Shown piece after piece: positions 1,591 through 46,639 of a stretch of DNA of 64,000 bases. Each line of letters opens with the position of its first letter. Position 1 is the first letter of the stretch. The position numbers and the translations under genes are program-made. A model generated the notes under the pieces. The model saw only the letters and a program-made list of their open reading frames with translations. It was not told the DNA's origin and did no database searches. The stretch is from Bacteroidota bacterium (lineage in GTDB: Bacteria > Bacteroidota > Bacteroidia > Chitinophagales > Chitinophagaceae), in assembly GCA_013289015.1 (NCBI GenBank), contig JABDAV010000001.1, forward strand, positions 34,895 through 98,894, given 5' to 3'.

Positions 1591-2664
1591 TTATTTAGTT
1601 ATAATTTGTGCTAAAGGCTGCATTGCCGGATGATCAGGCTTAAAATCAAAACCCAATAAGGCAGCAAAAGTTGATGCAAGTTGTGCCTGGTATAAAGTAT
1701 TACAATCAACTGCTTCACCAATATGCTTTGTGTCCGGGCCAATCGCTGCTATCCATATTTGTCCGGAACCCGGAGTGGTATTCCCATGGGTTGTCCATTT
1801 ATTATTAACTCCTCTTCCGTGATCACAGGTTACGATCAACGTTGTTTTGTTTTTATATTCCGGCATACTTTGTAGCATTTTCCATAGATCAGCTATCATA
1901 TTATCTTCTGCATGCGCACTTTTTAAATATTGATCGTACAAACCTTCGTGTGCATAATCATCTGTTTCATCAAAAGCGATGTACAATACCCGTGGCTTGT
2001 ATGCTTTCAAATATTCACGCGCAGCAAAATAAGTAAGCAGGTCAGGCCGCAGATCAAGCGGCTGGGGAGAAAGCGCTTGTACATCATTCAGAAGTTGCAA
2101 TTGCGGATTATTGAATTGCAATGCATCGTTATTTGAATTTACATAGATGCCACTGCGCCATTTATTCAATATATAAGGAAAACAATCCCATGATGTAAAC
2201 GCAGCTACTTTTCCTTCATAGCCTTTTTGTTTGTTGATGAATTCAAGCACGTTTACGTTTTTATTCCTGATAGTATCGTTTGAATTAACTGCAGAATCAG
2301 GATAACCCGTAAATATTTCGTTATAACCGGGATAAGAAAACCAGTATGGGTTTGCATTATTTACCGAACAACCTTTTGTTCTGTTGCCATAAAGCTGCCC
2401 GTGGCTTTCGATGGTTGTCCATAAAAAAGAAAAGAGTTTTTTCCTGCGTTCATTAATATCATCACTCCAGAACTTTTTTACGATCGCATCAGAATCCCTC
2501 GTAAATTTTTTATTAACTATGATGGCAGAATCAACTCCTTTAAACACCTCCTGCCAACGCATTCCATCTAATGTAACAATTACGAGATTTTCAGTTTTAT
2601 GCTGGGCAGAGACTGTTTGAATGATCCATAAAAAAACCAAAACTGTTAAGCTTGTTTTTTTCAT
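1591..2664 (-). CDS. Alkaline phosphatase superfamily (phosphodiesterase/sulfatase-like) secreted enzyme
   Basis: Signal peptide; NLVIVTLDGMRWQEVFKG metal-binding/nucleophile region, FDETDDYAHEG, VTCDHGRG metal ligands. Confidence 0.75.
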   Translation of the reverse strand: MKKTSLTVLVFLWIIQTVSAQHKTENLVIVTLDGMRWQEVFKGVDSAIIVNKKFTRDSDAIVKKFWSDDINERRKKLFSFLWTTIESHGQLYGNRTKGCSVNNANPYWFSYPGYNEIFTGYPDSAVNSNDTIRNKNVNVLEFINKQKGYEGKVAAFTSWDCFPYILNKWRSGIYVNSNNDALQFNNPQLQLLNDVQALSPQPLDLRPDLLTYFAAREYLKAYKPRVLYIAFDETDDYAHEGLYDQYLKSAHAEDNMIADLWKMLQSMPEYKNKTTLIVTCDHGRGVNNKWTTHGNTTPGSGQIWIAAIGPDTKHIGEAVDCNTLYQAQLASTFAALLGFDFKPDHPAMQPLAQIITK

Positions 2665-2740
2665 TCTTTAGAATTTTAAACAAGCAATGCATAAACATGC
2701 ATTGCTTTGCTTGTTGTATGAGAAATGCCGATATAAAAGA

Positions 2741-4348
2741 TTATTTAAGCAACCACATAGCTCCGTTAATATCATCGTTGCCACTATACTGCGATTGCAA
2801 TGCGGCAGTATAATTGGTTGCATTTGCTGTTTTTTCGTTTGAAGGATATTGAAAGCGCAGCGGAATTCTTCCGCTGTTGCCAGTACCGGTTCCGGTTGTA
2901 AATGTTGGCACACCGGTTCTTCTGTTTTGATAATATGCTTCCAAACCGGAATGACGAAACATAGCCAGATATTTCTGCTGTAAAATCTGCGTTAGCCCTG
3001 TTGTGCTGCCGGCATATTTTACAAGTGGCTGTGCATAATAAGTATCAAAGTTTATACTTACAGTTACGGCATTATAAAGCGCTGTTGAGCCGGGGCTTCC
3101 CGATTTAAGAAAATAAGCAGTGTATGGGCCATTTTCAGGAATACCATAAGAAGCCATTGAGGCTTTAATACCGGCCATGTAATAAGCTTCTGCGTTGCCT
3201 GACGGGCCCGAAGGAATCCATCCACGGTTAATGGCTTCTGCGATGTTGAAACACATCTCAGGATAACCAACCTGTATACTTGGCTCGCCGGTGTAGGTTT
3301 CATAATAACGATGGCGGTTGATTAAAGAATATTGCCCTGAATTTGTTTTTTGATACATTGTTCCCAAATCTTCGCCCGGATCAGCACCTACAAAAACGCT
3401 AAAGTCTGTTGAGTCTTTACCCGTTACCAATGCAGTTGCAGGTTCAGTAGTTGCATATACCCGTGGGTCTTTTAACTGCGTTAATAATCCTACATACGTT
3501 GCCGAAGTATTATACCGTAATGCATCGAACCCAAAATTGCCGGGATTCATTGGATATTCATTAGTAGGATAAAGAAATGTATATTGAAGATTATCCGCGT
3601 CGCTTTGCATTACCGGGTATTTTGTTGGATTATTTAAGATTGAAGGAAACTGCGATTTAATATTAAGGTCAGCATCATCTGCCTGTTTGCTTAATTCGAT
3701 CATCAAACGTAACCTGTATGTATTTACAGCCTTTTGCCATCTGGTGAGATCGTTATTAAAATAAATATCACCTTTCATGGTATTATCCTGTATTGCAATA
3801 AGTGCTGCCAATTCTGTGTTGGCACTATCCAGCCAAATAAAAGCCTGTTGAAAAACTTTTTTCTGGGGATCGTAGGTAGGCGTAAGTTCAGTTGTTCCCT
3901 GCAAAGCATCGGTCATAGGAATATCACCCATTTCCAAACTCATCTTGGTAAATAAATAAGCTTTGAAAAAATATGCCATTGCATTGTATACATTACCTGC
4001 GGGCAAACCAACAACAGTGGCCTCTTCATCCATCTTTACAACATTGGTAAGTGTTGCATAATAATCATCACCCGGGCCAAAATCGTAACGGTTATTGCCA
4101 TAATAGTCGTAATCACAACAATAGTATTGTCCCCATCTTTCCTTCATCGTATAAGGTGCTTCAAAAACACTGTTTTCAACTCCGTTCAGCAATAATGATG
4201 ATGGTACGGTTACGGGCTTGTTTTCATTTATTGATAAGCTATCAAAACTTTTTTTACAGCTTGCTGATACCACTAAGATAGCCAGGCAAGGCGTCAATAT
4301 TCTAATCAGACTTTTCATAACGATTGATATTTTTATTTTAGAATACAA
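2741..4348 (-). CDS. SusD/RagB-like nutrient-binding lipoprotein (likely start at 4318)
   Basis: Lipoprotein signal (ILVVSASCKKSFD), SusD-like architecture, directly downstream of SusC. Confidence 0.88.
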   Translation of the reverse strand: MYSKIKISIVMKSLIRILTPCLAILVVSASCKKSFDSLSINENKPVTVPSSLLLNGVENSVFEAPYTMKERWGQYYCCDYDYYGNNRYDFGPGDDYYATLTNVVKMDEEATVVGLPAGNVYNAMAYFFKAYLFTKMSLEMGDIPMTDALQGTTELTPTYDPQKKVFQQAFIWLDSANTELAALIAIQDNTMKGDIYFNNDLTRWQKAVNTYRLRLMIELSKQADDADLNIKSQFPSILNNPTKYPVMQSDADNLQYTFLYPTNEYPMNPGNFGFDALRYNTSATYVGLLTQLKDPRVYATTEPATALVTGKDSTDFSVFVGADPGEDLGTMYQKTNSGQYSLINRHRYYETYTGEPSIQVGYPEMCFNIAEAINRGWIPSGPSGNAEAYYMAGIKASMASYGIPENGPYTAYFLKSGSPGSTALYNAVTVSINFDTYYAQPLVKYAGSTTGLTQILQQKYLAMFRHSGLEAYYQNRRTGVPTFTTGTGTGNSGRIPLRFQYPSNEKTANATNYTAALQSQYSGNDDINGAMWLLK

Positions 4349-9744: not shown

Positions 9745-9849
9745 ATGAAGAAAAGAAGTTTAAAAGAATGGATAATCCGCCTGTTGATATATGCAACGAT
9801 AGGCTTTGCTATTGCTTATTTCTGGCAGCAGATGAAAAATAACCGCTAA
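9745..9849 (+). CDS. 34-aa single-TM micro-ORF, overlaps next gene (TAATG)
   Basis: Read by eye: MKKRSLKEWIIRLLIYATIGFAIAYFWQQMKNNR; stop overlaps the ATG of 9849. Below the ORF-track size cutoff. Confidence 0.55.
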   Translation: MKKRSLKEWIIRLLIYATIGFAIAYFWQQMKNNR

Positions 9850-10763
9850 TGAGTGAAAGCCAAAACATACCGCAGGAAAATTTCAAAGAACAAGTTCCAA
9901 ACAGCAAAGAAGTAGTGAATGAAAATGTTTCACCGGAACAAATTATTACATCGGCTGAGTTTTCAAATGAGACATTAGAAATCCCAAAATCAGAAATCGA
10001 AAACATGGAAGTGCATCATCACCCTCACGTGGATTCCCATTTGCATGGGAAGAAAAAGTTCAAAGAATATTTTTTGGAGTTCTTAATGATATTTTTAGCA
10101 GTAACACTTGGCTTTTTTGCTGAGCAGATGCGTGAAAACGTTGCTGATCACAGCAGGGAAAAAGAATTCATGAAATCAATGGTGGAAGACCTGAAAACAG
10201 ATACAGCAAACATGAACACTTTTTATACCCACTCAAATTTGGTTATCAGCCAAATAGATTCACTCATGTATTTAATAAGAAATCCGGACCGCAATCATTA
10301 CGGGCAAAGCATGTATTATTTCGCAAGAGTTATAACCACAGGGCTAGGGAGATTTGAATTGAGTGACAGAAGCTATGAAGAAATGAAAAGTTCCGGTTCA
10401 TTGCGGCTTGTTAATGATGATGTGCTTTCAGATTCCATATCAAAATACTATTCATCGCAAACTAATTTTAAAGAGCAGGCAGAATTGCAACTTACCAAAA
10501 TGGCTGCTTATACTGATATTGCCACCAGGCTTTTTGATGGTAACGTGTTTCAGCAAATGCTGCAAAGATTTCCTTACAAAGTAATTCCGCCACAAGGAAA
10601 CCCGCAATTGCTTACGAATGATGCAGCTATCATAAATCAATACGTTGGTACGCTGCATTATTATAGTGCAATCATCATAATTAATTCAAGCAGGGCAAAA
10701 CTGGAAAGCAACTCTTCAATTAATCTTATTAAAATGATCCAGGAGAAATACAACCTTCATTAA
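9849..10763 (+). CDS. Array family member 1 (long form): His-rich N-terminus, single TM, extracytoplasmic domain
   Basis: NMEVHHHPHVDSHLHGKKKFKEYFLEFLMIFLAVTLGFFAEQMRE; shared internal motif SYEEMKSSGSLRLVNDDVLSDSI. Confidence 0.85.
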   Translation: MSESQNIPQENFKEQVPNSKEVVNENVSPEQIITSAEFSNETLEIPKSEIENMEVHHHPHVDSHLHGKKKFKEYFLEFLMIFLAVTLGFFAEQMRENVADHSREKEFMKSMVEDLKTDTANMNTFYTHSNLVISQIDSLMYLIRNPDRNHYGQSMYYFARVITTGLGRFELSDRSYEEMKSSGSLRLVNDDVLSDSISKYYSSQTNFKEQAELQLTKMAAYTDIATRLFDGNVFQQMLQRFPYKVIPPQGNPQLLTNDAAIINQYVGTLHYYSAIIIINSSRAKLESNSSINLIKMIQEKYNLH

Positions 10764-10876
10764 CTGATTGTAAGAATAAAAGAAATAACAATCAAATCAA
10801 AATAACGGAGTACAACATTATCCAAAGTAGAAAGCAAAATTTCAAACAATACTCTATCAGTCACTAAAAATATATC

Positions 10877-12430
10877 ATGAAAACAAAAACAATTTTACTC
10901 AACCTCTCCGCATTAATTTTTTTAAGTTGTACACTTCATGCACAAACGCAAAAAGAAACCACTACTATAAAAGTTGATATTAAACAAGACAGTATAATTA
11001 ATTACAAGAAGTCTCAAAAATCAGTAACGCATGGCTCGGTAACTGTTGAAGGCAATAAGATAAATTACGAAGCAGTAGCCGGAACGCTTATTCTTAAAAA
11101 CAGCCTGGACACGCCCACGCTCAGCATGTCTTATATTGCTTATTTTAAAGAGGAAGGAGATGCAGCGCAACGTCCGCTTACTTTTATTTATAATGGCGGT
11201 CCCGGAAGCGCTACTATCTGGCTGCACATGGGTGCATGGGGCCCGCAGCGTGTTTACCTGGACGATACTTCACGCACCAAAGCACCTTATAAAACTGTGA
11301 ACAACGATTACAGTTTGCTTGATGCCAGCGACCTGGTTTTTATTGATGCGCCGGGTACAGGGTTTGGCGAAGTGATTACCAAAGAAAAGGGTGGTGCAGG
11401 AAAGCCTGAAGATTTTTTTGGTATTGACCAGGATGCACATGCATTCGCCAATTTTATTACACAATTCCTTTCTGATTTTAACCGGTGGAATTCACCTAAA
11501 TATTTATTTGGAGAAAGTTATGGCACGTTTCGCTCGGCTGTTGTTTCCAACATTTTGCAAAGCCAGGAGAATGTTGGTTTGAATGGAGTGATATTGCTTT
11601 CTCAATTATTAACATATGGTAACATGACGGATGCTGCAAAAGAAAATCCCGGTGATGATCAGTCGTACCAGCTTGCCTTACCATCGTACGCTGCAACTGC
11701 ATGGTATCATCATAAATTGCCTAATCAGCCTGAAAACTTAGAATCACTGTTGAAAGAAGTAGAGCATTTTGCAATGAATGAATATGCGCAGGCACTTAAC
11801 CAGGGTTCGATGCTTGATTCAACTGCTTTTAATAATATCGCAGAGAAATTGCACAATTATACCGGGCTGCCTGTGGCTTATATAAAGAAAGCAAACCTGC
11901 GTATAACCGGACCGCAATTTGAACAAAGTTTACTTAGTGATGAAAGTAAAATCACCGGGCGTTTAGATGCACGGTTTAGTGGTGCTGCCATTGATCCATT
12001 GGGTGAATATGCAGATTACGATCCGATGGATTCTTATATTGATGCAGCTTTTGCAGCAACATTCAATAACTATGTACGTACAGACCTTGGGTTTGGAAAA
12101 GGCATGAAGTATAAAGTTTTTGGTGATATACACTCATGGGATTTTAAACGTCAGCAGGGATTTGGAATTTTTCCAAATGTTATGAATGATCTCGCGCAGG
12201 CGATGATCTACAACCCTGATCTGAAAGTAATGCTGAATATGGGTTATTTTGATTTAGGCACGCCTTATTTTGAAGGTATGTATGAAATGCATCACCTGCC
12301 TGTTCCTAATGAACTGCAAAAAAATATTGAATTTCATACTTATTATTCCGGGCATATGGTGTACCTGCATCCCGAATCACTAAAACAACTGCATGATAAT
12401 GTAGCAAAGTTTATTAACGATACACATTAA
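10877..12430 (+). CDS. S10 family serine carboxypeptidase-like peptidase, secreted
   Basis: Signal peptide; FIYNGGPGSATIWLHMGAWGP, FGESYGTFRSAV (nucleophile elbow), C-terminal YYSGHMVYLH. Confidence 0.88.
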   Translation: MKTKTILLNLSALIFLSCTLHAQTQKETTTIKVDIKQDSIINYKKSQKSVTHGSVTVEGNKINYEAVAGTLILKNSLDTPTLSMSYIAYFKEEGDAAQRPLTFIYNGGPGSATIWLHMGAWGPQRVYLDDTSRTKAPYKTVNNDYSLLDASDLVFIDAPGTGFGEVITKEKGGAGKPEDFFGIDQDAHAFANFITQFLSDFNRWNSPKYLFGESYGTFRSAVVSNILQSQENVGLNGVILLSQLLTYGNMTDAAKENPGDDQSYQLALPSYAATAWYHHKLPNQPENLESLLKEVEHFAMNEYAQALNQGSMLDSTAFNNIAEKLHNYTGLPVAYIKKANLRITGPQFEQSLLSDESKITGRLDARFSGAAIDPLGEYADYDPMDSYIDAAFAATFNNYVRTDLGFGKGMKYKVFGDIHSWDFKRQQGFGIFPNVMNDLAQAMIYNPDLKVMLNMGYFDLGTPYFEGMYEMHHLPVPNELQKNIEFHTYYSGHMVYLHPESLKQLHDNVAKFINDTH

Positions 12431-12449
12431 GTAAACAAGAGTTTGAATA

Positions 12450-13391
12450 ATGCCTGAAGAACAAAACATAGAACAAAGTCCGGAAGACGGAAAGACCGAA
12501 AGACCGGAAGAAGTGAATTCAACTATTTCACAGGAGCAGATTATTGCATCAGCTGAGTTTTCAAATCAAACATCAGAAATCCTCAAATCAGACATACCAA
12601 ACATGGAAGTACATCATCATCCCGACCTGCATCACAAGAAGAAAAATTTCAAAGAATATTTTTTGGAATTCTTAATGATATTTCTTGCGGTAACACTTGG
12701 CTTTTTTGCAGAAACAATCAGGGAAAATATCTCAGAAAATAAACAAGCCGGTGAATTAGCAAAAAGCCTTTACCAGGAAGTGTTTGTTGATTCAATAAAC
12801 GCACAGAATATAATTAAGCAGCGGCTGCAAAAAGAAGAAAGCCTTAAGTTATTTGGAAAGATTGTAAACGATAGTGATCTCACAAATCCCCCAAAACAAT
12901 TTTATACTGCATTTGCATGGTCATTCTTTATTACAACTGCTATAACGTTTGAGCCAAATGATGGTGTGTTAAGCCAATTAAGAAACTCTGGTACGCTGCG
13001 TTATTTTCATAATATGAATGTACAAAGTAAAATAGGTGAGCTTAGTGTTGATATTACAAAGATCAGAGAACGGCAACAACAAGAATACAATTTTGCTTCT
13101 GCCAATGTAAGACCATTCGTTTTAAAATATTTTGATTTTAAATTACTTGATTCTGTTCTTAATGAAGGCAATCTGTCAATGGTAGAAACGTTGCTGCAGG
13201 ATAGTTCAAAGCTTTCTGTAAGTGAGAAGATCAGAAACTTTGATGACTTCAATAAAGCAGATGCGGTAAATCTTGCCTACTATTATGGCATCATGCTAAG
13301 ATCATCAAGACAGACGCAATTTGCACAATATGTAAAAGCAAATCACGAATTGCTGCAGTTATTACGCAGCGAATATCCGGTAAGCAAATAA
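12450..13391 (+). CDS. Array family member 2 (long form)
   Basis: NMEVHHHPDLHHKKKNFKEYFLEFLMIFLAVTLGFFAETIRE; motif VLSQLRNSGTLRYFHN. Confidence 0.85.
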   Translation: MPEEQNIEQSPEDGKTERPEEVNSTISQEQIIASAEFSNQTSEILKSDIPNMEVHHHPDLHHKKKNFKEYFLEFLMIFLAVTLGFFAETIRENISENKQAGELAKSLYQEVFVDSINAQNIIKQRLQKEESLKLFGKIVNDSDLTNPPKQFYTAFAWSFFITTAITFEPNDGVLSQLRNSGTLRYFHNMNVQSKIGELSVDITKIRERQQQEYNFASANVRPFVLKYFDFKLLDSVLNEGNLSMVETLLQDSSKLSVSEKIRNFDDFNKADAVNLAYYYGIMLRSSRQTQFAQYVKANHELLQLLRSEYPVSK

Positions 13392-13451
13392 TGTTTAGAA
13401 TACTAAAAACAAATGCAGCCAATAATTATTAATTAATTAACCGATAACACT

Positions 13452-14231
13452 ATGGAAGTACATCATCATCCCAAAGTAGAAAAGAAAAATTTCAAAGAAT
13501 ATTTTTTGGAATTCTTAATGATATTTCTTGCGGTAACACTTGGCTTTTTTGCAGAAAGTTTAAGAGAGCACGTAAATGATAATTCAAAAGAAAGCGAATA
13601 TATAACCGCACTTTCTAAAGACCTTATGGGTGACACAACGAATATTCATACGTGGATAGAAGCATTTAATTCCCGCATTAATGAATATGATTCGGTAATT
13701 AATATGCTGCGTGCTCCTGAAAAAATAACTAATGGTGCAAAACTGTATTATATGTCAAGAATAACAACCAGGGGCACTGTGTTTGAGGACAATAATAATA
13801 CAATGATCCAATTAAATATTTCAGGCAATTTCAGGCTTATACGAAATAAACAGCTGGCAGAAAAGATAGTAGCTTATCAGAATGATATCGACAACTATAA
13901 AAGAATAAACGAATACGATTCTTACGAAGCACGTGCTTTATATGAACCACAGTCTAAACTTTTTAATGCTTTCGTTTTTAATGACATGAGCAAGCCGATA
14001 ACCGATTCAACTGTTACCAGCAGCAATACATTGTTAGGTGGATTTAGAAATGTTTTCAAAGAGCCTTCAGGAAACCCGCAATTAATTACACAGGATGCAG
14101 AAAAAATAAATGACTTCGTGTATTACCTGCATCAACGGAGATCAACATTTGCTGCCGAAATACTTATTCTTTATAAGCAGGAACAAGATGCGGTTGCACT
14201 AATAAATCTTATCAAAGAATATAATTCATAG
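13452..14231 (+). CDS. Array family member 3 (short form)
   Basis: MEVHHHPKVEKKNFKEYFLEFLMIFLAVTLGFFAESLREH; motif MIQLNISGNFRLIRNKQLAEKI. Confidence 0.87.
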   Translation: MEVHHHPKVEKKNFKEYFLEFLMIFLAVTLGFFAESLREHVNDNSKESEYITALSKDLMGDTTNIHTWIEAFNSRINEYDSVINMLRAPEKITNGAKLYYMSRITTRGTVFEDNNNTMIQLNISGNFRLIRNKQLAEKIVAYQNDIDNYKRINEYDSYEARALYEPQSKLFNAFVFNDMSKPITDSTVTSSNTLLGGFRNVFKEPSGNPQLITQDAEKINDFVYYLHQRRSTFAAEILILYKQEQDAVALINLIKEYNS

Positions 14232-14236
14232 AATAC

Positions 14237-14992
14237 ATGGAAGTACATCATCACCCCAAAGTAGAAAAGAAAAATTTTAAAGAATATTTTCTGGAATTCT
14301 TAATGATATTTCTGGCTGTAACACTCGGCTTTTTTGCTGAAGGCTTAAGAGAACACATAAGTGATAATGAAAAAAGAGATCAATATATTGAATCCCTTGT
14401 TGAGGATCTTGAATCTGATTCATTAAGAATACAAAACATTCTGCATTTTGATGACGCCAAAATAGCAGGATTAAGCGGGATGTATCAATGCTATGATACA
14501 GTTACAAATGATCTTAAAGCAACATCCTGCATGGGTGCATTAATAAAATATTCAAAAGTAAACAGGGCCTTCCAATTAAATGACCGCACACTTGCGCAAC
14601 TCGCCAACGCTGGTGGATTCAGGCTTTTAGAAAAGCAGGATGCTGACAGTATTCTTACGTACGAAAGATCTTACAGAGCCTACCATGATTTTGAAGGTAC
14701 CATATACCAGGAAGCACAGGATAATGTTCGCAATACATTGAATGAACTGGCCGATTTCAAAGCGATTGCACCATTACAGGTAGTTTCATCTGCCATAGGA
14801 CTTGATACCGGCAGCAGCACACTAACCAGGCCTTTATTATTTTCTGATGACCGTATTTTGGTTAATAAATGGTTCAATCAATTGTTATTGTACCTAAGAG
14901 TTATAAAAGCACAACGGCTTTTGCTTTACAACCTGCAAGTGCAGGAAAGCAATCTTATCAGGTTTTATAAAAAAAAGCATCATATTAAATAG
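14237..14992 (+). CDS. Array family member 4 (short form)
   Basis: MEVHHHPKVEKKNFKEYFLEFLMIFLAVTLGFFAEGLREH; motif LAQLANAGGFRLLEKQDADSI. Confidence 0.87.
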   Translation: MEVHHHPKVEKKNFKEYFLEFLMIFLAVTLGFFAEGLREHISDNEKRDQYIESLVEDLESDSLRIQNILHFDDAKIAGLSGMYQCYDTVTNDLKATSCMGALIKYSKVNRAFQLNDRTLAQLANAGGFRLLEKQDADSILTYERSYRAYHDFEGTIYQEAQDNVRNTLNELADFKAIAPLQVVSSAIGLDTGSSTLTRPLLFSDDRILVNKWFNQLLLYLRVIKAQRLLLYNLQVQESNLIRFYKKKHHIK

Positions 14993-14994
14993 AT

Positions 14995-15741
14995 ATGGAA
15001 GTACATCATCACCCACACGTAGAAAAGAAAAATTTCAAGGAATATTCCCTGGAGTTCATTATGATATTTCTTGCTGTAACGCTCGGCTTTTTTGCAGAAG
15101 GCCTTAGAGAAAGCATAACAGACCATGCAAAAGAAAATGAATACATCATCTCCATGGTTGAAGATGCAGCAACAGATACTGCCAACATTCATATAGCCAT
15201 TAGACAAAATGATAAAAGAGTTGCTTCTTTAGATACGCTGGCAACATATTGCTTTAACTATACCGGATCGCAGGCAGATGATGAGGCAATTTACAGGTTG
15301 TACAAAAGAGCACTTGTTCATCCCGACATGGTAAGCCCTACCGAGCGCACTCTATTGCAATTAAAAAATTCCGGCGGTATGCGGCTGATAACAAAAAAAG
15401 CTGCAGTAGATAGTATTATTGCTTATGATGATATGGCAAAAAAACTGGCTGACCAGTTGGTTTATTATGAAAGATATCAGAATGAGTCTGTGAATTCGTC
15501 TTTTGAACTTTTGAATTTTAAATATTACCAGTCAGGCCTTAACAGTAAAAATGCAGCACAGGATTATACTTCGGCCGTTTTGTTAAGCCACGACAAAATA
15601 AAACTGGTAGAGTTTGGCAACAGGATATCAATATATAAAGGCGTAGTGGCTTTTTATGTTTCAAGATTAAATGAAATGAATGATCACGCTATTGGCCTGA
15701 TTAAAACTTTGAAAGAACAATACCATTTGAAAGATGAGTGA
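14995..15741 (+). CDS. Array family member 5 (short form)
   Basis: MEVHHHPHVEKKNFKEYSLEFIMIFLAVTLGFFAEGLRE; motif LLQLKNSGGMRLITKKAAVDSI. Confidence 0.87.
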   Translation: MEVHHHPHVEKKNFKEYSLEFIMIFLAVTLGFFAEGLRESITDHAKENEYIISMVEDAATDTANIHIAIRQNDKRVASLDTLATYCFNYTGSQADDEAIYRLYKRALVHPDMVSPTERTLLQLKNSGGMRLITKKAAVDSIIAYDDMAKKLADQLVYYERYQNESVNSSFELLNFKYYQSGLNSKNAAQDYTSAVLLSHDKIKLVEFGNRISIYKGVVAFYVSRLNEMNDHAIGLIKTLKEQYHLKDE

Positions 15742-16675
15742 AGAAGAAAAGATAAAACAAAGTCTGGAAGACGGAAAGTCCGAAAGACCGGAAGAAGTGA
15801 ATGAAAATATTTCACAGCAAGAAACAGTTGAACAAAGTGAAGCGCCAATCGAAACATCAGACATCACCATATCAGACATACCAAACATGGAAGTACATCA
15901 TCACCCGCATGTAGAAAAGAAAAACTTTAAAGAATATTTTTTAGAATTCTTAATGATATTTCTTGCGGTAACAATGGGCTTTATTGCAGAGAATATAAGA
16001 GAAGGTATCAGCGATACCAGCAAAGAAAAAGAATATGTGCGATCACTTTATGACGATATGCAGCGCGATAGTATAAACATAGGCACAACCGTTTATTTCG
16101 CTGGTCGCCAGATAAACAAAATTGACTCGTTAATATATATAATTAATCAACCTTTGCCCGACAGTAATGAAATAAATGCAGCTTACTTTTGTTCAAGAAT
16201 TGCTACCAGGGCAATACCTTTTGAACAAGCTGACCGTACCATACAGCAATTAAATAACTCCGGCAATTTCAGGCTTATAAAAAATGTTGCACTGGCAGAC
16301 AGCATTATAGAATATGAAAAAAACATTGCTGCATACAGGGAAAATCATGCAGTGGGCATGGAAGAGCGTCAACTTTTGTATCCTTTCATTTCTATCATTT
16401 TTGATGCAAATGTTTTTCAAACTATGGTTGACAGTACCAATCACATTCAAAGAACTTCAGGCCTTCATTCAATAAATAATGGAGATAAAAAATTAAACAA
16501 CCAGTTTATTTATTATTTGCACCAGATAAAATCAACCATAGCTGCTGAAAAGATTAACCTGCTTAGTATCTCCCGGCAAACATCTGCTATACGGGAAATT
16601 ATAATAGAAGATTATAAAACTATAAACCAAAATATGGAAGCATCATCACCACAAAGTGGGAAAGACAAATTTTAA
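15734..16675 (+). CDS. Array family member 6 (long form); C-terminus reads into the frameshifted start of member 7
   Basis: NMEVHHHPHVEKKNFKEYFLEFLMIFLAVTMGFIAENIRE; overlaps member 5 by 8 nt; ends NMEASSPQSGKDKF. Confidence 0.85.
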   Translation: MSEEEKIKQSLEDGKSERPEEVNENISQQETVEQSEAPIETSDITISDIPNMEVHHHPHVEKKNFKEYFLEFLMIFLAVTMGFIAENIREGISDTSKEKEYVRSLYDDMQRDSINIGTTVYFAGRQINKIDSLIYIINQPLPDSNEINAAYFCSRIATRAIPFEQADRTIQQLNNSGNFRLIKNVALADSIIEYEKNIAAYRENHAVGMEERQLLYPFISIIFDANVFQTMVDSTNHIQRTSGLHSINNGDKKLNNQFIYYLHQIKSTIAAEKINLLSISRQTSAIREIIIEDYKTINQNMEASSPQSGKDKF

Positions 16676-17399
16676 AGAATATTTTCTCGAGTTTGTTATG
16701 ATATTTCTTGCTGTTACAATGGGTTTTATTGCTGAAAATATTCGTGAAGATATTACTGAACACCAGCGCGCAAAAACATTTGCGGCAACTATGATACAGG
16801 ATCTTAAAGCCGACACTGTTCAACTGGCCGCCTATAACAGATATTATTCGAGGGCAGCAAATAACATAGACACATTTATGCAACTGCTTACTGCAAATGA
16901 TCCACAAAATATTCCGTCCGGGAAATTATACTGGTATGGTTTATGGGGCGGAGCGCGTAACAATTTTGTTTCAAATGATGCTACGTTTCAACAAATGAAA
17001 AGCTCAGGTTCGCTGTCTTTTTTTAAACCTGTTATTGCAACTGACGTAACAAAATACGACAGGTTTTGCCGCTTGTTACAAGCCACAGACGAAATGAACC
17101 GCGATGTTTATACTGAAGTAAGAAAGACCAGGTCGATGATATTTGAATTTAAATACAACGAGATTGCAAACCAGATTGCACAAAGAAGCAGGATTGCATT
17201 CAGCCAGGCAAGTATAGATTCTTTCATCGCAACAAACCCTCCTTTGTTAAGTTATGATAAAACACTGTTTAATGAATATGTTGAACTGGTGCGTTCAAGA
17301 TTTATACGAAATTATAATGTGGCTTATTCAGATTCGTTGATCAAACAAGCGAACATTGTGTTAAATGAACTACACAAAGAATATAATTTTGATGAGTAA
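16656..17399 (+). CDS. Array family member 7; probable GTG start after loss of the original ATG frame
   Basis: GKTNFKEYFLEFVMIFLAVTMGFIAENIRED; motif FQQMKSSGSLSFFKP; ORF-track start at 16656 is GTG. Confidence 0.8.
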   Translation: MGKTNFKEYFLEFVMIFLAVTMGFIAENIREDITEHQRAKTFAATMIQDLKADTVQLAAYNRYYSRAANNIDTFMQLLTANDPQNIPSGKLYWYGLWGGARNNFVSNDATFQQMKSSGSLSFFKPVIATDVTKYDRFCRLLQATDEMNRDVYTEVRKTRSMIFEFKYNEIANQIAQRSRIAFSQASIDSFIATNPPLLSYDKTLFNEYVELVRSRFIRNYNVAYSDSLIKQANIVLNELHKEYNFDE

Positions 17400-17412
17400 T
17401 TAACAAAAAAAA

Positions 17413-18126
17413 ATGGCTTTAAATTATCAACCAAAAGTGAATAGGAAAGCGGTGAAAATATATTTCCTGGAATTTATAATGACAACGCTTGCAATAACAT
17501 TAGGGTTTTTTGCAGAGAACGTTCGTGAGTCTTCTATTGATAAAAAAGTTACAACCCAATATTTGGAAACTTTTCAACTCGAGCTTCTCAATAATAAGAT
17601 TGTATTCAACAATTATGACAGCATTTATAACAGCATTATGCCGGCAGAAGACAGCATAGTAAATATCTTTTATGAAAAGACGGAAAACAAAAACCTGTAT
17701 ACTATTGGCAGGCTGCTTGCCAGAACAAGAAGATTTATAATACCTCCTATAAGTATTTCAGCGTACCAGCAAATGGTTAATTCAGGCGGCTTGAAAAATA
17801 TATACAATCTTGCACTTAAAGATTCAATGGCTGTTTATTCTGAGCTGATACAACAGATCGAAAACTATAACGCATATATTTTTGATCTGCGCAGTGCCAA
17901 CTCTCCTCAAATAGGTATGCTTGAAGATTTTCACGATTTTGCAGGGCCGGATCATATCCCTTCTATAGATAGTTATCCTGCTTTAACCGCACGCGAAAGA
18001 AGATTTATTATTTATTATTACAGAACGCTCTTCATGCGGTCTTTGTCAGATAAAAGCCTGCTGGAAAGATTAATGCTTACCAATGATCATTTGTTGTCGA
18101 CGATAAACCAGGAGTTAAAAAAATAA
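17413..18126 (+). CDS. Array family member 8 (most divergent, no HHHP)
   Basis: NRKAVKIYFLEFIMTTLAITLGFFAENVRESS; motif YQQMVNSGGLKNIYNLALKDSM. Confidence 0.8.
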   Translation: MALNYQPKVNRKAVKIYFLEFIMTTLAITLGFFAENVRESSIDKKVTTQYLETFQLELLNNKIVFNNYDSIYNSIMPAEDSIVNIFYEKTENKNLYTIGRLLARTRRFIIPPISISAYQQMVNSGGLKNIYNLALKDSMAVYSELIQQIENYNAYIFDLRSANSPQIGMLEDFHDFAGPDHIPSIDSYPALTARERRFIIYYYRTLFMRSLSDKSLLERLMLTNDHLLSTINQELKK

Positions 18127-39041: not shown

Positions 39042-39311
39042 TTACCAGTTTATTTCCCCGCGCCGCCAGAGATCATCTAACGGACTATTAATAAATACCA
39101 GGTCTTCCTTTTTTACATGTAAATACCGCTCTGTTGTTTTCATGCTGAAATGGCCCAATATCTCCTTTATATATTTTATATCAATACCCTTTTCAAGCAG
39201 GTACGTTGCAAAACTGCGCCGCAATGTATGAAACCCGGCAGTCTTATTTATTCCTGCCCGGCATTTACAGCCACCCGGCTTGTAACCGGTACCCGGTGCA
39301 AGGCATACCAT
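39042..39311 (-). pseudogene. C-terminal fragment of a tyrosine recombinase/integrase
   Basis: GFHTLRRSFATYLLEKGIDIKYIKEILGHFSMKTTERYLHVKKEDLVFINSPLDDL; has HxxR, LGH and catalytic Y boxes but no N-terminal domain or first Arg. Confidence 0.8.
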
Positions 39312-42782: not shown

Positions 42783-42889
42783 CAGTAACGCGTTATCCAC
42801 ATCTTTTTATTCACTTCATATTTATTTCGATGCAAAACAAAAAGCTGACAGACAGCTTTAACAAAATCTGTAATGCAATATGCACATAT

Positions 42890-42948
42890 AACCTGACAGG
42901 TTTATAGGTTTAACCTCCTGGTCTTTTGATACTCAAACCTGTCAGGTT
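42890..42948. repeat. REPIN-like palindrome pair 1
   Basis: aacctgacaggtttataggtttaacctcctggtcttttgatactcaaacctgtcaggtt. Confidence 0.88.
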
Positions 42949-43100
42949 TGAGATCTCAAAAACAAATTGAATTTATTGAAAATACAGGATAATACGTATC
43001 TTAACCTACTGAAAATATTTACTTAACCATTTTATATCTAATGCTTATAAATGCCCTTAAACTGGATTGAAATTAAAGCAAGCGCATTAATTAAAAACCC

Positions 43101-43126
43101 ATCAGGTTCAGGAACCTGACAGGTTG
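43101..43126. repeat. Single REP-like palindrome (atcaggttcaggaacctgacaggttg)
   Basis: Same AACCTGACAGGTT core upstream of the RAYT gene. Confidence 0.75.
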
Positions 43127-43159
43127 AAAACAATTGAATAATTTAAAAACATTTCACCC

Positions 43160-43717
43160 ATGCCACACCAGACACTTCCGCTTGACGATGATGGAATCTA
43201 TCACATTTATAACAGGGCTGTTGGCAACGAGCAGTTATTTTTAAATGAGCAGTATTACCTGCATTTTTTACAAGGACTTGAAAAATATTTACTGCCGCAT
43301 GTACATATCTGGAGCTATTGCCTGCTGCCCAATCATTTTCATTTGCTTGCAGAAATAAGAACACATAGTACAGGAAAAGCCTTTTCTAAAGCCATCAGTG
43401 ATTGCTGTAATGCACACACAAAATGGCTGAACACATTAAATGAGAGAAAGGGAAATTTGTTTATGCGCCCTTTTAAGAGAAACAAAATTAAAGATGATAC
43501 GCACCTTGCATGGACAATCTGGTATATACACCGCAACCCTGTGCATCATAACTATATTGCCGGTTTGAAACAATGGAGATTCTCTTCGTATAATGCAATA
43601 GGCTCTGATAAAACAAAGGTTGACACTGAAAAAGTCTTAGAATTTTTCGGAGGATATGATAATTTTATTAAGCATCATAGCATACAGCTTAAAGGCTTTT
43701 ATGATAGTTTGGAATAA
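43160..43717 (+). CDS. REP-associated tyrosine transposase (RAYT, Y1/TnpA_REP family)
   Basis: DGIYHIYNRAVGNEQLF, WSYCLLPNHFHLLAEIR (HUH-type HFH), NAHTKWLNTLNERKGNLFMRPFKRNKI, IWYIHRNPVHHNY. Confidence 0.9.
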   Translation: MPHQTLPLDDDGIYHIYNRAVGNEQLFLNEQYYLHFLQGLEKYLLPHVHIWSYCLLPNHFHLLAEIRTHSTGKAFSKAISDCCNAHTKWLNTLNERKGNLFMRPFKRNKIKDDTHLAWTIWYIHRNPVHHNYIAGLKQWRFSSYNAIGSDKTKVDTEKVLEFFGGYDNFIKHHSIQLKGFYDSLE

Positions 43718-43746
43718 ACCTGCCGGGTTGAGGAACGTGCATAAAT

Positions 43747-43806
43747 AACCTGACAGGTTTAGAGGTTTAACCTCTCAGCTTTTTTATGGGCATAACCTGT
43801 CAGGTT
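43747..43806. repeat. REPIN-like palindrome pair 2
   Basis: aacctgacaggtttagaggtttaacctctcagcttttttatgggcataacctgtcaggtt. Confidence 0.9.
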
Positions 43807-43865
43807 GCAGAACGTACACAAATCGAAATTATACAACGTTTCCAACCCATATTTGTCCCCGCTTA

Positions 43866-44462
43866 TTTATATCTCACCGTCAGGCCGATAAAGAAATAGC
43901 TCTTGAGTTAGCACATAATACTAAAAAGTTAGGTTTTGCCTATTGGATTGATGCAGAAGATTCAAACCTTGCTGAACTTGAACGAAGGAAAGATGAAGAA
44001 GAAATAAAAAAATTTATACCGTTATTAACTGCCTGCATTATTGAAATGGCTTTAATAAACTGTACGCATATAGTGGCATATTTAAGTGAAAATTCCAGAG
44101 AATCCTGGTGGATTCCCTATGAATATGGAAGAGTAAAAGATGCAAAAATTTTTTTTAGCCGGGCATGTGCGTGGAATACATTAAAACCTGAAAAAAATGA
44201 AGTTTTCCCTGAATACATGTACTTAGGAATTATCTGCGAAAACGAAGACGGGGTTACGAAATGGCTTGAAAAAGAAAAAAAGATATGGCATACGGCTACA
44301 GATTGCCAGCCAGAAGATTTTCCGGAATGGGTTAAAAAAATATTTGAAGAAATTGAGGAAGAAAAAAATAGAAAAATTATTGAAACTGTTCATATTGTGA
44401 AACAGGATATACCTGCAGCTAAAAAATTAAGATTAGGATTACCTGAAAGGAAAACAACCTGA
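43866..44462 (+). pseudogene. TIR-like domain gene fragment without a recognisable start codon
   Basis: In frame with ORF 44046..44462: (CPRL)FISHRQADKEIALELAHNTKKLGFAYWIDAEDSNLAELERRKDEEEIKKFIPLLTACIIEMALINCTHIVAYLSENSRESWWIPYEYGRVKD; frame is open back through the REPIN with no ATG/GTG/TTG, and the TGA stop lies in the next REPIN. Confidence 0.65.
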
Positions 44463-44515
44463 CAGGTTTAGAGGTTTAACCTCTCAGCCTTTTGATGAAT
44501 ATAACCTGTCAGGTT
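44456..44515. repeat. REPIN-like palindrome pair 3
   Basis: aacctgacaggtttagaggtttaacctctcagccttttgatgaatataacctgtcaggtt. Confidence 0.9.
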
Positions 44516-44532
44516 GCTGAGCGTGCACAAAT

Positions 44533-44592
44533 AACCTGACAGGTTTGACGGTTTAACCTCTCAGTCTTTTGATGCGTATAACCTGTCAGGTT
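44533..44592. repeat. REPIN-like palindrome pair 4
   Basis: aacctgacaggtttgacggtttaacctctcagtcttttgatgcgtataacctgtcaggtt. Confidence 0.9.
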
Positions 44593-44731: not shown

Positions 44732-46639
44732 ATGGAACCGGGTACTTTAAAACCTACACAAACTCCATTGGATAATATCGGGCTTGCATTCTCAGGCGGT
44801 GGTTACCGGGCCGCATCTTTTGCTTTAGGCACACTGTCTTATCTAAACAAGATCAGGTGGAACGATAAATCAATGCTGGAAAGCGTAAGTTATATTTCCT
44901 CTGCTTCAGGCGGTTCCTTTACCAATGCTGCTTATGCATTAAGCGTTGTAGAGGCAACAGGTTTTGACGCTTTTTATAAAAAGTTCTTTGAGAACATTGA
45001 AGGCGTTAAACTGCTCGACAGGGTTTTTGAAAATTTAAATGATCCGGATGCGTGGAAAGATTGTCCTGAAAAACGAAGGAACATGATTAATGCCTTTGCC
45101 CTGTCATACAACCAGTTGTTTTTTGAAGGCAAAACAGTAGATGATATTATGTATAAAGGCATAAACGGCCCGCTGGATGAGATCTGCTTTAATACAACTG
45201 AGTTTTATCATGGTTTGCTCTTTCGCCAGGCAGTTAAATTAAAGCCAGACAGTAAAAGCGATAAAACATTTCTATATGGCAACTATATAATTCATTTAAT
45301 GAATCATGCGGAAAAGCATTTAAAACTTGCCGACCTGGTGGCTGCTTCCTCCTGTTTCCCTGCAGGCTTTGAGCCTATCTTGTTTCCCGATGAATTTATT
45401 TATAATGATACAGATGGAAAGATAAAAGCCGGTATCCTGGAAAACCTCTGTATTGAACCACAGGAATTACAGGTTGATGAATTAAAGCTTATTCACAATG
45501 ACGCAGACGTGGATAACCTGGTAAAAAACCTCGCACATCCGGTTAACATAGAAGTATTGGCTGAAGAAGCAAAACAACTGTCTTTACGCAATAACCTTAA
45601 GATTGGTTTTATGGATGGAGGCATAACAGACAACCAGGGCCTTGAAAGTATAATGCGCGCTAATGAAAGAAGGGTGAATAAAGAAACTGATTTTAAAGAA
45701 TTCGACCTGATGTTGATCTGTGATGTGGGCAGCCATTATATGGATCCTTATATTCCGGTAAAACCAAAAAAATATAAAGGCCTTCCAAACCTGAGCATTG
45801 ATAACATTTTTGTTATTGCAACTGTTCTTCTTATTGCAGGAATAGCAGCGTTTATAATTAATTATCATCTGTTGGCTATTCCGGCAACTTTGATTACAGC
45901 AACAGGCCTTTTAACTATAGCCGGCTTGTTTTTGCTAAGGCGCTTTATTGCAGGGGGCGTAAGAAAAAATGAAGGATTAAATCTTTCAAAAAACTTTTCA
46001 CCCGAAATCGTAAAAGAAATGTTTCACCATTTTGGAAAGACTCCGATTGGCGCTATTGCAGATATGCTGACCGAAAGATTTAATTCGGTGATTACTTTAA
46101 ACAACGATATTTTTCTAAAACGCGTAAGGCAATTGTTGTATCAAAGTTTTTTTGATGAGGGATACGGCTCGTACCGGTTAAAGACCAACCATATTTATGA
46201 TTTGAGCTTCTCTAACGATCTTAACCGGGTTTCCGGCGAGGGAAGAGACCCTCTTTACCTGTCACCCGGTTATTCTATGCAGATAATTGCAGAGAATGCA
46301 TTTGAAATGGGAACAACCCTTTGGTTTGAACATGAAAAAATAAAAGACAGTTCACTTGCTTCTATTATTGCATGTGGTGAGTTCTCTACCTGTTATAACC
46401 TGCTGGTGTATATTGACAGGTTAAAAGCTGATACGTTATATTTTGAAAGATTAAGTTCAGCATGGCAGGAGAAACTGAACGACCTGCAGGGAAGGCTTTT
46501 GGATGATTATGACAAGTTTAAAAAAGACCCTTTCTGGCTGTATAATGAATCAGGCCTTTTATTTCATATTGCAAACTTTAAAAATAAAAGCGTTGCAGAG
46601 TATAAAATACCCGGTAAGTTTACCGGGTTAAGAAATTGA
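44732..46639 (+). CDS. Patatin-like phospholipase with central TM hairpin
   Basis: LAFSGGGYRAASFALGTLSYL (oxyanion), ISSASGGSFTNAAY (G-x-S-like nucleophile region), IGFMDGGITDNQG (DG-dyad); FVIATVLLIAGIAAFII and ATLITATGLLTIAGLFLL hydrophobic segments. Confidence 0.85.
   Translation: MEPGTLKPTQTPLDNIGLAFSGGGYRAASFALGTLSYLNKIRWNDKSMLESVSYISSASGGSFTNAAYALSVVEATGFDAFYKKFFENIEGVKLLDRVFENLNDPDAWKDCPEKRRNMINAFALSYNQLFFEGKTVDDIMYKGINGPLDEICFNTTEFYHGLLFRQAVKLKPDSKSDKTFLYGNYIIHLMNHAEKHLKLADLVAASSCFPAGFEPILFPDEFIYNDTDGKIKAGILENLCIEPQELQVDELKLIHNDADVDNLVKNLAHPVNIEVLAEEAKQLSLRNNLKIGFMDGGITDNQGLESIMRANERRVNKETDFKEFDLMLICDVGSHYMDPYIPVKPKKYKGLPNLSIDNIFVIATVLLIAGIAAFIINYHLLAIPATLITATGLLTIAGLFLLRRFIAGGVRKNEGLNLSKNFSPEIVKEMFHHFGKTPIGAIADMLTERFNSVITLNNDIFLKRVRQLLYQSFFDEGYGSYRLKTNHIYDLSFSNDLNRVSGEGRDPLYLSPGYSMQIIAENAFEMGTTLWFEHEKIKDSSLASIIACGEFSTCYNLLVYIDRLKADTLYFERLSSAWQEKLNDLQGRLLDDYDKFKKDPFWLYNESGLLFHIANFKNKSVAEYKIPGKFTGLRN

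Follow-up and report, generated by a model that had tools for sequence, protein, structure and literature searches.

REPINs are doublets of REP sequences that form hairpins, and tandem units that include flanking sequence have also been described (PMC3116915). Classical REP sequences carry a conserved tetranucleotide before the palindrome, which is most often GTAG (PMC8266576). The window (the whole stretch of 64,000 nucleotides that was analysed) was taken from a 3.59-Mb draft genome of 189 contigs, 66% complete. It contains a locus that resembles the REPIN/RAYT systems: inverted REP doublets appear as long hairpins, they are arranged as tandem units with a spacer, and a RAYT-like gene (REP-associated tyrosine transposase) is their neighbour. 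On the other hand, one of the repeats overlaps the end of a gene and is not strictly extragenic. No GTAG foot was found in the sequence beside the window palindromes.

The gene enclosed by the repeats encodes a TIR-like protein. Its closest relatives are TIR_2 genes (PF13676) located behind TPR-S genes (PF20308), with which it shares the same core and the W-[IV]-P-Y-E-Y-G-R block. However, compared with that operon family, the window copy is without the N-terminal segment, the start codon and the upstream partner. A description of the TPR-S/TIR pair was not found in the literature searched. The resemblance to ThsB of the Thoeris system is a weak profile likeness (best 32 bits, E 1.8e-8). Unlike in Thoeris, the scanned upstream neighbours carry TPR-S, CHAT, patatin, LRR or TIR domains, and none of them is a recognised ThsA. 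The solved TIR domain-containing protein 8btn matched the window TIR with an E value of 3.4e-4. We read the window gene as a 5'-truncated, probably silent and recently broken TIR immunity gene, upstream of which a RAYT/repeat module came to lie by insertion or rearrangement. We give this reading a probability of roughly 0.7.

The repeat array and the RAYT-like gene

The features of the locus are collected in Table 1. Nine copies of the palindrome AACCTGWCAGGTT are present in the window, all of them within 42890–44592, against 0.08 copies expected by chance. Each full repeat unit is 77 nt long, with 60 nt in the hairpin and 17 nt in the spacer. In DNA folding, the hairpins at 42890–42948, 43747–43806, 44456–44515 and 44533–44592 gave fold z-scores from –4.8 to –7.0. 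The first-pass annotation had called these elements REPINs. The label suits the inverted REP doublets beside a RAYT-like gene, but it does not suit the copy number: in its own genome (66% complete), the long form was found at the TIR locus only, in four copies, and not in many dispersed copies. Ten more short palindromes exist genome-wide. Four of the eight loci with lone REPs elsewhere in the genome lie within 7–24 nt of a stop codon. Therefore, the repeat at the 3' end of the TIR gene stands in an ordinary position.

Table 1. Features of the TIR locus, with coordinates in the window.
Feature	Coordinates	Strand	Basis and remarks
REPIN-like hairpin, copy 1, 5' of the RAYT-like gene	42890..42948	+	Repeat search; fold z –4.78
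Single REP palindrome just 5' of the RAYT-like gene	43113..43125	+	Palindrome count; a REP pair also precedes the RAYT gene of G007 (L083)
RAYT-like gene, 185 aa	43160..43717	+	NF047646 match; HUH motif NHFHLL, YIHRNP
Degenerate 77-nt unit, last 30 nt	43717..43746	+	24/30 identical to the tails of other units
77-nt unit, its end being the TIR 5' break	43747..43823	+	69/77 identical to the unit at 44456; fold z –7.0
5'-truncated TIR gene	43824..44459	+	N-terminal segment reduced to about 10 residues; core complete, C-terminus complete or nearly so; core without standard start
Putative catalytic Glu codon	44121..44123	+	E100 of the fragment, in WWIPYEYGR; invariant in 17/17 homologues
77-nt unit at the TIR 3' end, containing TGA 44460–44462	44456..44532	+	Repeat search and unit alignment; fold z –6.4
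REPIN-like hairpin, last copy, in tandem with the preceding unit	44533..44592	+	Repeat search; fold
Patatin-like phospholipase gene, 635 aa, 3' of the TIR gene	44732..46639	+	PF01734, 50.6 bits

The RAYT-like gene matched the NCBIfam model NF047646 with an E value of 6.7e-14 and 52 bits, which is below the cut-off of 80. A PDB sequence search with its protein gave no match. A RAYT gene 66% identical to it is present in another genome of the same genus (L083, contig C535 of G007, positions 2119–3121) and is framed by the same palindromes as REP pairs. Outside these REP pairs, direct repeats 79 and 54 nt long, which are 91–98% identical, border the module of the relative. A position inside a duplicated stretch may be usual for the RAYT type of the window and of this relative.

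Extent of the TIR gene and its missing 5' end

After the TAA at 43746–43748, no stop interrupts the TIR frame between 43749 and the TGA, and its translation comprises 237 codons. It had been noted at first pass that the frame runs back through the 5' repeat without ATG, GTG or TTG and that its stop lies within the repeat at 44456–44515. The translation bears out both statements. The sole in-frame standard start is ATG 44046, and a protein begun there would be without the first half of the core. The in-frame near-cognate codons are CTG 43797, ATT 43851 and ATA 43869. The TIR-derived sequence spans 43824–44455 and is bounded by unit edges on both sides, with ACAAAT/CGAAATT at the left and GAAAAC/AACCTGAC at the right, where the slash marks the edge. 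The identification of the gene as a TIR gene also held. The match to PF13676 was 28.2 bits against a cut-off of 28 (29.4 bits with in-frame neighbours included), and the assignment is backed by strong profile matches to fuller homologues. None of the NCBIfam models matched the scanned members of this subfamily, and their PADLOC matches were weak.

Homologues were detected in related genomes. A scan of public genomes with the single sequence gave no relative, and the alignment-based scan gave homologues at 17 public loci. One of them (L040) is itself frameshifted, so that 16 were used for the N-terminal segment. The homologue set of 17 sequences is made of 16 from public genomes and one intact paralogue from the same genome as the window (L009, contig C27). 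The best homologue found is 46–47% identical to the window copy, and no closer full-length relative was found in a phylum-wide sample of 396 genomes.

At 16 of the 17 public loci, an open frame of 59–117 residues lies upstream of the SHR/SHQ motif, the exception being the frameshifted one. In the 16 public sequences and the own paralogue, the N-terminal segment before CPRLFISHRQ carries a W without exception (17/17) and an R that is nearly invariant (15/16). An ATG-started segment was seen in all the loci other than L034, which is partly masked, and L039, in which the start codon is absent. The segment with the invariant W was found in homologues and not in the window copy, which keeps about 10 residues of it. 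These residues start one codon past the end of the 77-bp unit: NYPTIPVNKCPRLFISHQ of Chitinophaga silvisoli (L028) aligns to NYTTFPTHICPRLFISHR of the window from 43827, and the unit edge is at 43823/43824. Because the retained residues begin where the repeat unit has just ended, the window gene is beheaded. Judged from the sequence, it is 5'-truncated, and the truncation falls at the edge of the repeat unit. The loss is estimated from the homologues at about 45 (L024) to about 95 residues (L028). In the 66% complete genome, the C27 paralogue was the sole match to a profile of the N-terminal segment, and a six-frame reading of 42783–42889 and 42949–43159 did not reveal a TIR 5' remnant. The comparison, which covered homologues of 30–47% identity, suggests that the ancestral state was full length.

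The 3' end is different. Proteins of the family mostly end at or just past an LP motif, and the window protein, which has IP there, runs about 15 residues beyond it. Comparable long C-terminal tails are found in L028 and L030. Because the C-terminus extends past the usual family end, the 3' repeat adds little beyond the stop. At most a few codons were lost to this repeat, and the TGA comes from it. The comparison of ends with full-length homologues therefore confirmed one half of the claim that the gene was truncated at both ends: the 5' loss at the unit edge stands, but the 3' end is near complete.

The core is undamaged. Of the columns without variation among the 17 other sequences, all 15 are retained. 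They include the glutamate of WWIPYEYGR, which by analogy with other TIRs is a putative catalytic residue of a TIR NADase. There are no internal stops, and where the fragment differs from most of the family, the changes are mild, DP to DS excepted. The coding signal is 0.166 per codon in the TIR frame and 0.01–0.03 in the other frames. The AlphaFold2 model of the fragment has a mean pLDDT of 75.6. SPARTA TIR-APAZ, B. cereus TIR, ThsB, BtpA and SARM1 were prominent among its Foldseek matches, with modest TM-scores and other flavodoxin-like folds mixed in. The fragment is thus predicted to adopt the TIR fold.

The age of the break was approached by a simulation of neutral drift. The open frame and 18 conserved residues were both kept in 23% of cases at 2% change, in 3% at 5% and in 0.03% at 10%. 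These figures are slightly low since three of the 18 residues were picked with the window in the alignment. The flanking 77-nt units diverge by about 10% from each other. If the units were identical at the time of breakage, a silent gene drifting by 5% would retain both the frame and the conserved residues in only about 3% of simulations, which counts against our reading. Two possibilities follow: the break postdates the array, or selective constraint still acts on the frame. The intact invariant columns, the lack of stops and the in-frame coding signal are as a young break would show.

Origin of the locus and rival explanations

We propose that TIR was originally the second gene of a sensor-plus-TIR operon. 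The RAYT-like gene and the REPIN-like 77-nt array would have arrived directly upstream, through an insertion accompanied by a deletion or through a repeat-mediated rearrangement. Sensor gene, promoter and start codon would have given way to the module, together with about 45–95 N-terminal residues. On the 3' side, a tandem pair of units just behind the gene, a frequent place for REPs, overlaps the final codons, and its TGA serves as the stop. The sequence shows the loss of the N-terminus and of the partner, the break at the unit edge, the intact core and the near-complete C-terminus, and we infer the order of events, the lack of expression and the involvement of the transposase. The genus synteny around HipA/DUF3037 stops short of the AraC-RAYT-TIR-patatin stretch, and no empty site is readable for this reason.

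Alternatively, the TIR fragment could have been moved between units by the transposase or by unit recombination, and would then be a passenger flanked by 77-nt direct repeats. We regard this transport as cargo, which had been offered at first pass, as unlikely. It agrees with the unit edges on both sides, with the 69/77 identity of the flanking direct repeats and with the missing 5' remnant upstream. The best homologue found is also no more than 46–47% identical. This evidence is circumstantial. However, the right boundary lies near the natural gene end, which a random fragment would match by luck only. The arrangement is also a single instance, and neither RAYT genes nor AACCTGWCAGGTT-type palindromes were found near the TIR homologues at the 17 public loci. 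Furthermore, RAYTs have been described as single-copy and apparently unable to mobilise themselves, REPINs being the mobile part (PMC3116915). It is quite unlikely, too, that the gene is alive, with a shortened TIR protein starting from CTG 43797 in the repeat or from ATT 43851 and the repeat serving as a new 5' leader. The 237-codon open frame, the complete set of invariant residues and the coding-like codon use would be expected of such a gene, and the neutral simulation mildly favours constraint. On the other hand, all the start codons on offer are of rare types, TTG 43853 lies in another frame and the present one is confirmed by the CPRL block. In addition, the conserved N-terminal segment is missing, and a simple Bacteroidota-type promoter pattern, which is a weak test, had no match near the gene. 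Neither cargo capture nor non-standard initiation, both of low probability, is needed to explain the locus.

An artefact, in which the assembly joined distant places at the repeats, is extremely improbable. The genome is a draft of 189 contigs and alike repeats stand on both sides of the gene. However, the left break follows a spacer specific to its unit, and the flanking units share exact matches of about 33 nt at most, which would be below the usual final word sizes of assemblers. In a broader view, RAYT/REPIN arrays would capture gene fragments and slowly collect and break immunity genes, and the present TIR effector would have its frame maintained by selection and would be expressed from a leader that the repeat supplies. 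We consider this scenario very unlikely. Most likely, the locus is a modest curiosity, that is, a broken copy of a known kind of gene and not a new system. Immunity genes broken beside mobile or repetitive DNA illustrate the loss of defence systems. The locus provides exact break coordinates and a testable prediction, namely that REPIN-like arrays are sites of gene breakage.

The TIR subfamily and the neighbouring genes

At 10 of 16 homologue loci, a sensor/effector gene lies upstream on the same strand and ends within about 60 nt of the TIR gene or overlaps it. The domains of these partners are TPR-S, patatin, CHAT, LRR-Roc-TIR or TIR. No such partner precedes the window TIR gene, and the RAYT-like gene is in that place. 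From these gene orders, a member of the subfamily is usually the second gene of a sensor/effector pair. Judged by its domains, the pair is probably an anti-phage or conflict system. The intact paralogue (1354–1974 of L009) is located behind a gene whose counterpart in the same genus (L032) is a TPR-S/MAP3K_TRAF_bd protein. The conserved N-terminal segment and the recurrent second-gene position are seen in this paralogue and in several of the loci L024–L036. As a by-product, the analysis brought up a poorly described TIR subfamily that recurs behind TPR-S sensor genes. The genome with the broken gene also has an intact copy.

None of the seven congeneric genomes that were compared has the patatin-like gene of the window. 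Its protein had no PADLOC match, and TPR-S was not found in it. Patatin proteins precede the TIR homologues in L026 and, with TPR-S, in L027. The window patatin is at most a candidate operon partner of the TIR gene: the order is reversed, the repeats intervene and TPR-S was not found.

Repeats of other kinds are present elsewhere in the window. Between 34326 and 38230, a 280-nt direct repeat occurs three times (34326, 36578 and 37763) and a 40-nt repeat four times (34757, 35691, 37008 and 38191). Small genes lie among these repeats, a tyrosine-recombinase-like fragment comes next at 39042–39311, and the arrangement resembles a gene-cassette array. A tandem cluster of paralogous genes with the common motif MEVHHHP..KKNFKEYFLEFLMIFLAVTLGFFAE extends from 9849 to 18126.
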